Below are positions 13,376 through 28,023 of a DNA stretch of 28,626 bases, one piece after another. Numbering within the stretch: position 1 is the first letter of the stretch; each line of letters begins with the position of its first letter. The notes beneath the pieces are model-generated. The model saw nothing but the letters and a program-made list of their open reading frames with translations, had not been told where the DNA came from and searched no databases. The stretch comes from a virus, in IMG/VR virus record IMGVR_UViG_3300033145_001191, positions 1 to 28,626 of that record; one strand, written 5' to 3'. The position numbers and the translations under genes are program-made.

Positions 13376-13406
13376 CAAAGATAAGGAAAGTAAGTGAGAT
13401 AACCAA
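13376..13406 (-). promoter_or_regulatory. Promoter for the connector operon, overlapping the capsid terminator
   Basis: The minus strand reads TTG (13406-13404), 20 bases, TATCTTTG (13383-13376). The -33 box is in the loop of the hairpin at 13387-13420, and the spacer is its 3' arm, so terminator and promoter share the same DNA. Confidence 0.8.
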
Positions 13407-16228: not shown

Positions 16229-16259
16229 CAAATATAATATTTACAATTTTCATTACCAA
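16229..16259 (-). promoter_or_regulatory. Promoter for the scaffold-capsid unit
   Basis: The minus strand reads TTTGGTA with TTG at 16259-16257, 20 bases, TATATTTG (16236-16229). It is 21 bases upstream of the ATG at 16208. Confidence 0.8.
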
Positions 16260-24965: not shown

Positions 24966-24996
24966 CAAAGGTATGAATTAAAAATGTAACTACCAA
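24966..24996 (-). promoter_or_regulatory. Promoter for the packaging operon
   Basis: The minus strand reads TTTGGTAG with TTG at 24996-24994, 20 bases, TACCTTTG (24973-24966). It lies 29 bases upstream of the ATG at 24937 and just downstream of the terminator of the YiiX-like gene. It probably drives about 6.2 kb through TerL. Confidence 0.8.
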
Positions 24997-25083: not shown

Positions 25084-25638
25084 CTAAAAGTTTTTATAAA
25101 TTGTTTTCATAGAAGGTTCTTGTAACAAGTCTTCTGGATTTTTATCATAGGTTTTACCATGAAAAGTATTTCGTACAATATCCATTAATACTGCAGAAAA
25201 TTCAGAACAATACATTCTTTTCATAGCCTTCTTATTTTTAGGACCAACCCATTTGCCAGTTACAATCATATACATTTGATAAGGAAAAGCTAAAAAATCA
25301 TATCTGTGAGGAATAGTCATACAACCCACAGCAAATCTAGAAATCAACTTCTTTTCCTTACTAGTAAGTTGTCGCTTAAACCTTCTTACAATTACTTTAT
25401 GTTTCATTAAATAAACTCCTATAGGAATATGTGCCTCTACTCCTTTTGCAGTAGCTTCAGCTATAATCAAGTGACCCCATAAATTAATTACAGTACCGGC
25501 ATGATTAAGAATAGTTTTATTTAATATTTCTTTACGCCTTAACTTTCTATATACTTTCATCCACCATTGAATTGCTTTCCCAACCCAATTATTACCTTTA
25601 ACTAAAAATAAATCTCCTACTTGTGGTTCATATGTCAT
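25084..25638 (-). CDS. Permuted NlpC/P60 (YiiX/YebB-like) papain-fold hydrolase
   Basis: A 184-residue protein with the order His, Glu, Cys typical of the circularly permuted NlpC/P60 group. VGDLFLVKGNNWVGKAIQWW (residues 7-26) begins the domain. NHAGTVI holds His46, LIIAEATAKGVEAH has the acidic residue E61, and RMYCSEFSAVL holds Cys144. YiiX/YebB proteins are putative lipid- or peptidoglycan-related hydrolases. In a phage the activity could serve lysis (amidase/peptidase) or entry. It has no signal peptide. It is the last gene before a strong terminator and lies downstream of a homing-type nuclease. The fold call is good; the substrate is inferred. Confidence 0.75.
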   Translation of the reverse strand: MTYEPQVGDLFLVKGNNWVGKAIQWWMKVYRKLRRKEILNKTILNHAGTVINLWGHLIIAEATAKGVEAHIPIGVYLMKHKVIVRRFKRQLTSKEKKLISRFAVGCMTIPHRYDFLAFPYQMYMIVTGKWVGPKNKKAMKRMYCSEFSAVLMDIVRNTFHGKTYDKNPEDLLQEPSMKTIYKNF

Positions 25639-25665
25639 TATAATTATTTTTTAAATTTAACTTGA

Positions 25666-25735
25666 GCTCTATGCAGGTAACACTCCCGCTTCCCCTGATT
25701 ACAGAACAGGTGCATCATTTTAATGCTTAAAGAGC
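25666..25735 (-). other. Cloverleaf-like structured element of tRNA geometry
   Basis: Read on the minus strand, this stretch folds as a 7-bp acceptor-like stem (GCTCTTT / ATAGAGC, one mismatch), a 2-base linker, a 4-bp arm with 7-base loop, one base, a 5-bp arm (one mismatch) with 7-base loop, 4 bases, and a 5-bp arm (GCGGG / CCTGC) with 7-base loop. These are the exact spacings of a tRNA. The conserved tRNA bases are missing: no U8, no GG in the D-loop, no U33, no TTCRA in the T-loop. It is therefore not a functional canonical tRNA. It overlaps the stop of the nuclease gene by 9 bases and is more GC-rich than its surroundings. It could be part of an intron, a tRNA mimic, a decayed tRNA or chance. 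Confidence 0.35.
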
Positions 25736-26335
25736 TTTTATACTTTTCTTATGTTTAACTGCAATTTTATGTTTATGATAAGTTTTATAGTACGCTTTTT
25801 TAATCTCTTTTAATCTACTAAGAATATAATCTGACTCTTTTTCTATTGATATATTAGTAAACCTATATATCTTACCAACACCATTAGCCTTTAAAATACT
25901 AGTACGTTTTTTATCTAATTTCTTTTGTTCTTTTTCATTATGATATCCACCATCTACTTCTAGTACAACATTTTCCTTTGGCAAAAAGAAATCTACAATA
26001 AAAAACTTAACTCCAGTAACACCTTCATAGTAAAGAATATGTTGAAACTTATAATTAATGTCACATTCTTTTAAAAAAATCTTTAGTGCCTTTTCTGCAT
26101 ATGTTTGCTTTTGTATCAATTCTGCTCTAAATTCTTCTGCTTTCTTTTTACTATTTTGAAATGCAAAACCCCTCTGCTTATTGTAATATTCTTTTTTTTC
26201 TCTCTTACTAAGTAATCCTACCCTTCTTTTTTGTAATACTTTTAATACATATTCTGAATCATTTTCTTCTAAATGTTTTATCAAATCATCTAAAACACCC
26301 CTATGCATACATGTTATATCTACTTTTTTCTTCAT
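25727..26335 (-). CDS. DUF559 / EDxHD-type (Vsr-like) nuclease, probable homing endonuclease
   Basis: A 202-residue, very basic protein. The nuclease core is at residues 78-162: QTYAEKALKIFLKEC (E81), INYKFQHILYYE (Q98), VKFFIVDFFLP (D115), NVVLEVDGGYHNEKEQ (E126, D128, H132) and IYRFTNISIE. This E / Q / D / ExDGxxH order is that of PD-(D/E)XK-type DUF559 proteins related to Vsr and to the EDxHD homing endonucleases of phages such as I-Bth0305I. The N-terminal 75 residues are Lys/Glu-rich helices that could bind DNA. It sits alone between a structured non-coding segment (26341-26665) and a cloverleaf-like element, with no promoter of its own, as a mobile intron-borne or free-standing homing gene would. 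The nuclease call is strong; mobility is inferred. Confidence 0.75.
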   Translation of the reverse strand: MKKKVDITCMHRGVLDDLIKHLEENDSEYVLKVLQKRRVGLLSKREKKEYYNKQRGFAFQNSKKKAEEFRAELIQKQTYAEKALKIFLKECDINYKFQHILYYEGVTGVKFFIVDFFLPKENVVLEVDGGYHNEKEQKKLDKKRTSILKANGVGKIYRFTNISIEKESDYILSRLKEIKKAYYKTYHKHKIAVKHKKSIKAL

Positions 26336-26340
26336 CTTTA

Positions 26341-26665
26341 TTTTAAATAAAGTAAGCCCCTAATAGTAAAGACAATCTTCACTATTTAAACTAGTTACAG
26401 TTTTAAGACATTTCTTAAGTGGGGAACGTAAATTGATCCATTGCCATTTACTGTTGACGTAACCCTAAGCGGCTGTACCCGGCCATTCTAAGGCTTAGGC
26501 AAAATACTCTGTCTATTTAAACTTTGTGAACTATCGGAGAAAACCATTAACTATTTGTTAAATTTAAATCCGACTTCTAGGGCTCTCATTGTGGTTGCTA
26601 ATCACAGTGGAATCTAAATTCTATTTGAGCCCGATCCTCTGATGCTGAGCAATCGGAGGGTTCTA
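26341..26665 (-). ncRNA. Structured gene-free segment; candidate ncRNA or group I intron part
   Basis: The 342 bases between two genes have no convincing ORF but many paired arms. Stems are at 26362-26371/26377-26386, 26403-26407/26414-26418, 26428-26433/26446-26451, 26464-26470/26493-26499 (CCTAAGC/GCTTAGG), 26580-26585/26627-26632 (GGGCTC/GAGCCC) enclosing 26587-26593/26603-26609, and 26636-26643/26652-26659. GC is clearly higher than in the genes around it. The strand is set to match the genes. One stem (26362-26386) pairs better as minus-strand RNA through a G-U pair, but two (26587-26609 and 26636-26659) pair better as plus-strand RNA, so the strand is uncertain. Adjacency to a homing-type nuclease suggests a group I intron, but I could not find a convincing P7/P3 core. 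Confidence 0.45.
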
Positions 26666-26677
26666 TTATTAATATTC

Positions 26678-27280
26678 TTATAATCCTAATGTATGTACTC
26701 TATAAGCTACATGACATTTTAACACACCAGCTCCAGTACCTGCTCCAAAAGCAGTACCAGCATATAAGCTAATTATATTGTTACCAGCAACAGTAATAGC
26801 TTGATCAGATGCAGAAAGTGCATTGACTTGAACTACTTTATCTGCGCTAGCTCCTAAAAGATCAGCTTTTGCAATAGCTGTTGTGAAAGCAACCTGAGCA
26901 CCGGTTACTCCAACATTAATAACCATATCATCACCACCATCCGCATAAGCACCGGTGGCATAATCATAAATTAATAAAGCGGAGATAAATTCTAATGCAT
27001 AACCTGCCCCCTGAGCTGCTACTAAAGGTGCACCATCTGCATGTGCTACATCACCAGCAGCATTACCAACAATCTCTGTAGCAGTTAAAGTAACTTCTGC
27101 AATTTGTACAGGAGATACATTTGTACTTGCACTTAAGTTTGCTTGTGTTATAATTTCACCAATCTTGTCTTGAATTTTATCAACATGAATACCACGAGCT
27201 AAATAAGCGTCGTCCATATCTGTATGTTCATCCAAAAAAGTATCAAGATTTAATGTTTCTAAACTTGAAATTTCAGCCAT
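26678..27280 (-). CDS. Ala/Gly-rich virion-like protein, possible decoration protein
   Basis: A 200-residue protein. Residues 1-55 are an N-terminal segment (SLETLNLDTFLDEHTDMDDA; VDKIQDKIGEIITQANLS). The rest is strongly Ala/Gly/Val/Thr-rich beta (TATEIVGNAAGDVAHADGAP; INVGVTGAQVAFTTAIAKAD; GAGTGAGVLKCHVAYRVHT). Composition is that of an abundant structural protein, yet the gene is over 8 kb from the head genes. Its own promoter (27310-27340) lies 30 bases upstream, which fits high, separately controlled expression. No membrane segment or enzyme motif is visible. Structural role inferred from composition. Confidence 0.65.
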   Translation of the reverse strand: MAEISSLETLNLDTFLDEHTDMDDAYLARGIHVDKIQDKIGEIITQANLSASTNVSPVQIAEVTLTATEIVGNAAGDVAHADGAPLVAAQGAGYALEFISALLIYDYATGAYADGGDDMVINVGVTGAQVAFTTAIAKADLLGASADKVVQVNALSASDQAITVAGNNIISLYAGTAFGAGTGAGVLKCHVAYRVHTLGL

Positions 27281-27309: not shown

Positions 27310-27340
27310 CAAAAGTAATAAATGTATTTTTAACTACCAA
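27310..27340 (-). promoter_or_regulatory. Promoter for the 200-residue virion-like gene
   Basis: The minus strand reads TTTGGTAG with TTG at 27340-27338, 20 bases, TACTTTTG (27317-27310). It is identical in layout to the promoters at 24966 and 27993. Confidence 0.8.
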
Positions 27341-27992: not shown

Positions 27993-28023
27993 CAAAGATA
28001 CAACATTAATTTGATATTACCAA
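27993..28023 (-). promoter_or_regulatory. Promoter for the basic-peptide / holin unit
   Basis: The minus strand reads TTTGGTA with TTG at 28023-28021, 20 bases, TATCTTTG (28000-27993), followed by TACAGT. The same TATCTTTGTACAGT block occurs at 28356-28369. Confidence 0.85.

Follow-up and report, generated by a model that had tools for sequence, protein, structure and literature searches.

We favour, with somewhat better than even confidence, the reading that the stretch of DNA analysed here (28,626 nucleotides of a viral genome, hereafter the window) holds a free-standing EDxHD homing endonuclease gene and, directly upstream of it, a conserved folded phage leader RNA of about 330 nt, the two travelling together, with cutting by the enzyme a prediction from its sequence. 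Under this reading the nuclease would cut phages that lack the cassette, and repair would copy the cassette (RNA, nuclease and flank) into them by ordinary homing. The RNA itself would be a leader or a processed non-coding RNA rather than an intron, as suggested by the location of such RNAs mostly at the 5' end of transcripts and by a sister family of RNAs that usually lack a nuclease. Most likely it would either influence in cis how the genes behind it are transcribed or expressed, or be cut from the transcript as a small phage RNA, with the nuclease its frequent passenger. Phage homing nucleases are known in introns, in inteins, or alone; to our knowledge, their repeated association with conserved, folded RNAs of a kind not recognised as introns is undescribed, and a non-exhaustive search of the open-access literature found no paper evidently describing such RNAs.

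The nuclease gene and its setting

The window is a genome fragment of a crAss-like phage, as its major capsid protein matches Pfam Crass_capsid (E 1e-110) and its portal and terminase match PHROG families. All genes discussed lie on the minus strand, in the order promoter-like site, virion gene, RNA, nuclease, YiiX-like gene. The promoter-like site (27340-27310, minus strand) is of Bacteroidetes type, TTGGTAGTTAAAAAT..TACTTTTG, and precedes a virion-type gene (26678..27280) of 200 codons which is complete, with a natural C-terminus: the protein ends in ..LGL*, and its relatives end at the same place, mostly in ..TGL*. Between this gene and the nuclease gene lie 342 gene-free nucleotides (26677-26336); the next longest gap between predicted genes of the window has 146 nt. 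Behind the nuclease, 88 bases separate its end from the start of the downstream neighbour (25084..25638), which has its own ATG and no Pfam match; we keep for it the name YiiX-like, given in an earlier reading made from the sequence alone. In GC content both flanks (5', 36.0%; 3', 35.2%) exceed the nuclease gene (25.6%) and the whole window (31.9%). That sequence-only reading had remarked on the gene-free stretch, on the rise of GC in both flanks and on a placement like that of a mobile element between the virion and YiiX-like genes, and on all three points we agree with it.

Other features of the neighbourhood deserve mention in their own right. Bacteroidetes-type promoter-like sites of the form TTGGTAGTT/TTGGTAATN..TAnnTTTG recur on the minus strand (24966-24996, 27310-27340, 27993-28023, 13376-13406 and 16229-16259) and are likely to be unit boundaries of the phage. 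The interval between the virion gene and a gene for an MxRIKD protein is a swap site, occupied by the YiiX-like gene in the window and, by eye, by a caspase-like gene in another contig (L191:1335-2195).

The nuclease gene (25727..26335, minus strand) is intact and encodes 202 amino acids that match DUF559 (Pfam E 7e-13). Residues E81, D115, E126, D128, G129, H132, D141 and R158 do not vary across 44 aligned phage relatives, a pattern consistent with the EDxHD signature. An AlphaFold model (mean pLDDT 90.7) has as its top PDB match the catalytic domain of I-Bth0305I (3r3p; E 1.9e-4, TM-score 0.76 on the target), so both the catalytic core and the fold place the protein in the EDxHD class; in the model the core lies between about 75 N-terminal residues, folded as a helical extension, and a long helix at the C-terminus. 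From sequence and model together, the gene is assigned to the EDxHD/DUF559 homing-type nucleases, a known homing family (PMC3943268, PMC6083498), with cleavage predicted only, in agreement with the class named in the sequence-only reading. The model also has weak fold matches to apicomplexan mitochondrial ribosome proteins, which may carry RNA-binding RAP domains; we mention these matches as a lead for possible RNA binding by the nuclease fold.

Scans with the nuclease or the virion protein as single queries gave no matches, nor did a DNA search for phages carrying the 2.4-kb region, but profile scans succeeded and placed related nucleases at 79 viral loci. In the tree of these proteins the nearest relative is the nuclease of locus L094 (40% identity overall; fork support 94/84), and next to this pair come L060 and L109/L110 (support 95/70). 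Among the side observations at these loci are a tandem pair of EDxHD nucleases behind a single upstream RNA (L059:2830-3813), and several nucleases that lie 0.5 to 3 kb from phage tRNA genes (L059, L061, L064, L065 and L103).

The 3' tail of the locus (25639..25733, minus strand) can be folded into a cloverleaf over the nuclease stop codon, and the sequence-only reading had treated this 70-base element as a structured counterpart to the 5' segment. That half of its claim of structure on both sides does not stand, whereas the 5' half, considered below, does. The fold is not significant (z -1.75), and the tails of the nuclease relatives contain nothing alike, bar a chance-looking match in a GC-rich contig. 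A tRNA identity was considered and rejected, as ARAGORN called no tRNA and the Rfam tRNA model gave no match even when E values up to 10 were allowed. The cloverleaf is not counted as part of the element.

The upstream RNA and its counterpart in a second phage

A gene-free stretch of the same kind also precedes the L094 nuclease. When the window's stretch (26336..26677, minus strand, with the RNA probably at about 26661-26336) was compared with 78 usable nuclease upstream regions, that of L094 came top, with a score of 88 against 45.6 +/- 8.3 for shuffled sequence (0 of 200 shuffles as high); second and third by z-score were L096 (82) and L098 (48). Conversely, when the L094 RNA was scanned along both strands of the whole window, the highest-scoring tile was 26347-26688 on the minus strand (score 86), the next independent place scoring 69 in a background with a mean of 38.5 and a standard deviation of 8.2 over 994 tiles. 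As a noise check, other crAss-like contigs, cut into 12,270 tiles, were scanned with the window RNA, and the maximum was 79; this match, at 4081 of L191, lies in coding sequence, was dismissed as chance, and sets the noise ceiling of the scan. Exact blocks common to the two RNAs occur in the same order: TAGAAGTCGGAT, TTTCTCCGATAGT, CACAAAG, TCCCCACT and AGGGGC. The nuclease tree and the RNA ranking agree in putting L094 closest to the window, as co-inheritance of the two parts would have it. These comparisons of sequence show the upstream stretch to be a genuine structured RNA, homologous to that of L094, and the 5' structured segment of the sequence-only reading is upheld through its conservation there. 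The L094 copy also has what we take to be a resemblance to the 3' end of T4 td, which is not counted as evidence.

Folding energy only modestly beats that of shuffles (z -1.9 on the minus, sense strand and -2.6 on the plus strand), and the case for an RNA thus rests on conservation. Twelve helices can be drawn in the window RNA. The L094 RNA can be given helices in matching order, and 5 of the 12 keep their place there but differ in sequence. With numbers this small and helices paired up by eye between the two RNAs, the structure lends support to the homology but is not proof of it. The minimum-energy fold recovers most of the drawn helices unaided, and at least seven paired arms are predicted, as had been claimed from the sequence.

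From the 5' end (all coordinates on the minus strand), helix D0 (26631..26656, CCGAT/ATCGG) has no certain counterpart in L094, where a different hairpin is found. Domain D1 (26580..26632) has a closing helix GGGCTC/GAGCCC and two inner hairpins; L094 has ACCTC/GAGGT, again with two inner hairpins, and its sequences differ from those of the window. Domain D2 (26534..26573) follows the linker TAGAAG with a TCGGA/TCCGA helix, and has an inner hairpin TTAAC/GTTAA; its pairs vary in relatives (TAGG/CCTA, TTGG/CCAA). The TCGGA/TCCGA helix is kept in 4 further relatives, with double changes in one pair, and 100% of its cells are paired as against 33-62% when slid, a value reached by 19 of 500 shuffles. 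Domain D3 (26464..26499) is a CCTAAGC/GCTTAGG hairpin in whose place L094 and L098 have a possible pseudoknot instead, and the hairpin D3b (26428..26451, GTAAAT/ATTTAC) is present in the window only. Domain D4 (26357..26424) consists of a CCCC/GGGG helix around a hairpin whose sequence differs among the window, L094 and L060; a gapped pattern made for it recovered solely its source locus. The last helix ends about 20 nt ahead of the nuclease start codon, which is left uncovered.

The arrangement of the pair differs between the two phages. L094 has a near copy of the window's 27310-27340 promoter, then the RNA, the nuclease and two virion paralogues, the first of which is the best relative found for the window's virion gene (55% identical). 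The RNA-nuclease pair is therefore next to the virion gene in both phages but in different places, downstream of it in the window, and between the promoter and the virion genes in L094. The window copy of the RNA, unlike those of its relatives, has no promoter directly ahead of it. A third contig, L191, has no cassette: about 26 nt separate its virion paralogue from the gene that comes next. Comparison of homologous phages with and without the insert, which the sequence-only reading had put forward as a check, gives two occupied positions and one close-packed arrangement. RNA and nuclease seem to travel together, and the two-position arrangement is what a mobile unit would be expected to look like from sequence; the case for mobility is made by two positions in two divergent phages, rather than by near-identical filled and empty alleles.

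Conserved RNAs in other phages

The upstream gaps of other phage EDxHD nucleases also contain conserved sequence. Upstream DNA is 81% identical over 324 nt between L106 and L125, with nucleases that share 42% amino acid identity; the corresponding values are 82% over 129 nt and 40% for L101/L107, and 77% over 203 nt and 49% for L109/L110. As judged by these identities, the upstream stretch is better conserved than the nuclease in several clades. Further conserved upstream stretches are those of L106:1-572 and L125 (upstream of 2345), L109/L110, L112/L123 and L147/L154/L163, and these four groups are apparently unrelated to one another.

Strong covariation is seen in a sister RNA family, to which one of these upstream RNAs led, and which a 19-base pattern finds in 18 viral contigs (L072-L089, for example L075:9799-9998 on the plus strand and L076:5224-5411 on the minus strand), with further copies at L173:3469-3672 and L174:2971-3157. 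Its features are a long P1 helix, a conserved ARTAAAGGRTA, and the blocks AGGGCAGAGGTAA, TAGAGATAAC and ACTAATAATATATAAACGCC; a pseudoknot AAGAG/CTCTT is likely. In an alignment of 14 sequences, 25 of 34 pairs are changed on both sides (16.7 in shuffled alignments), the covariation score is 0.538 (0.196 shuffled), and 88% of cells are paired (36-54% when slid). With the family's model, R1, further copies were detected in Kehishuvirus 'tikkala', bajarodcaudo virus 1 and cr106_1. The family has no match in Rfam release 15, so that crAss-like phages, which are abundant gut viruses, have one or more RNA families with strong covariation that Rfam does not match. The role of such RNAs at transcript starts, and whether nucleases depend on them, thereby become testable questions.

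By eye, many copies of the sister RNA start just behind a Bacteroidetes-type promoter (TTTG..TAnnTTTG), and they usually precede tRNA clusters or structural genes. This usual site at the start of transcripts, ahead of unrelated genes, argues for a role in cis or for a small RNA processed from the 5' end. A DUF559 gene is present in 3 of the 18 records, each time directly behind the RNA; the other 15, five of which are 98-105 kb long, have no DUF559 match, which implies that the sister RNA does not need the nuclease. The sequence-only reading had offered a new nuclease-plus-RNA element as one of its two options, and this is the option that has gained support, although, unexpectedly, a phage RNA family of related appearance is mostly nuclease-free.

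Kinship of the window RNA with the sister families is suggestive at the level of sequence. The best matches of R1 in the window are at background level and do not fall at the element, which is thus not assigned to that family. The family-2 model, R2, finds the right spot at rank 4 with an E of 0.75, which is not significant and not counted as proof. A lone match of the family-2 pattern in L093 was put down to chance.

Introns, guides and leaders

The alternative with the longest pedigree is a divergent group I or other self-splicing intron that carries a homing endonuclease and is spliced from an intergenic spacer. EDxHD enzymes do occur in group I introns (PMC3943268), and crAss-like phages are rich in introns, inteins and PDDEXK nucleases, with group I introns abundant in other groups of these phages (PMC7886860). 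However, both genes that flank the window element are complete, leaving no interrupted exon for splicing to restore; the L094 copy starts at its promoter, without an upstream exon, and its nuclease stops 34 nt before the next start codon; behind the L060 nuclease come a terminator-like hairpin and a new promoter-like site; and the relatives lack a 3' ribozyme half. No P7/S-type motif common to the homologues is seen by eye. A group I intron is therefore unlikely, given the complete neighbours, the absence of an upstream exon in L094 and the missing 3' half, and we regard this explanation, one of the two options of the sequence-only reading, as improbable; the doubt about group I already voiced there was well placed.

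Rfam has less to say on this point than might be hoped. In the window it has no group I, group II, HEARO, GOLLD or ROOL match, and searches at gathering and at permissive thresholds, over the window and the relatives' loci, returned tRNAs and chance matches only. In a control phage, cr111_1, the major capsid protein gene is split by an insert (L196:1457-2369) with a GIY-YIG-like ORF and, by eye, group I features, and this apparent intron was missed as well. The silence of Rfam, including that on the core elements P3-P8, P7/R and S, is thus weak evidence against group I, and we have withdrawn it as proof. The covariance-model search proposed in the sequence-only reading accordingly carries little weight on group I, and introns of crAss-like phages may be under-detected. 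A group II intron is not indicated, as there is no Rfam group II match and the ORF is a nuclease rather than a reverse transcriptase.

Somewhat less improbable than an intron, though still unlikely, is a fixed and conserved phage RNA gene beside which a homing gene inserted, its target being in or near the RNA gene. The 15 nuclease-free records of the sister family and the position of the nuclease directly behind the RNA in the other three would suit this well. So would the five nucleases found behind family-1 RNA, which are not one clade (4 changes, as against 4.9 in shuffled assignments), as independent insertions would give; but the pair is intact at two positions in the window and L094, and there the RNA moves with the nuclease. 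A leader that controls expression of the nuclease alone, for example by delaying its translation, would account for the place of the RNA immediately 5' of the start codon in relatives with the pair. We hold this to be highly doubtful, as sister RNAs precede unrelated genes and the last helix of the window RNA stops short of the start codon. Equally doubtful in our estimation is the bolder proposal that the RNA is a functional partner which would bind, steer or license the nuclease. The EDxHD nucleases of crAss-like phages would then be homing elements of a new, RNA-dependent class, and the RNAs that occur alone would be leftovers of such pairs or copies acting in trans. By analogy with IscB and its upstream HEARO/omega RNA, the nuclease could even be guided by, or dependent on, the RNA, which lies directly upstream in the same orientation and is more conserved than the protein in several clades. 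To this reading we give the smallest chance of all, since the nuclease is small and, apart from the helices added at its N-terminus, has the fold of an ordinary homing enzyme, most sister RNA records are without a DUF559 nuclease, and a search of the virion gene and the remainder of the window for guide-like matches to the RNA gave nothing beyond chance.

The preferred reading, a homing gene and a leader RNA that would move as a unit, can also be set against systems already described. I-Bth0305I, from a Bacillus thuringiensis phage, shares the catalytic fold and the invariant E, D, ExD, H and D with the window's nuclease; it is intron-encoded, whereas the window gene is free-standing behind an RNA that is not intron-like. 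Free-standing phage homing genes of the T4 seg/mob type resemble it in their intergenic and promiscuous position and intact nuclease, but the window nuclease has an accompanying conserved structured RNA of about 330 nt. HEARO/IscB resembles the window in that a structured RNA immediately precedes a nuclease gene and is oriented like it; the window differs from it in nuclease fold (DUF559/EDxHD, not IscB-type) and in RNA, with no Rfam HEARO match and no sign of a guide, and the sister RNA is usually nuclease-free. GOLLD and ROOL are ornate large phage RNAs, often near tRNA clusters; the window RNA, which is without an Rfam match, is about half their size or less.
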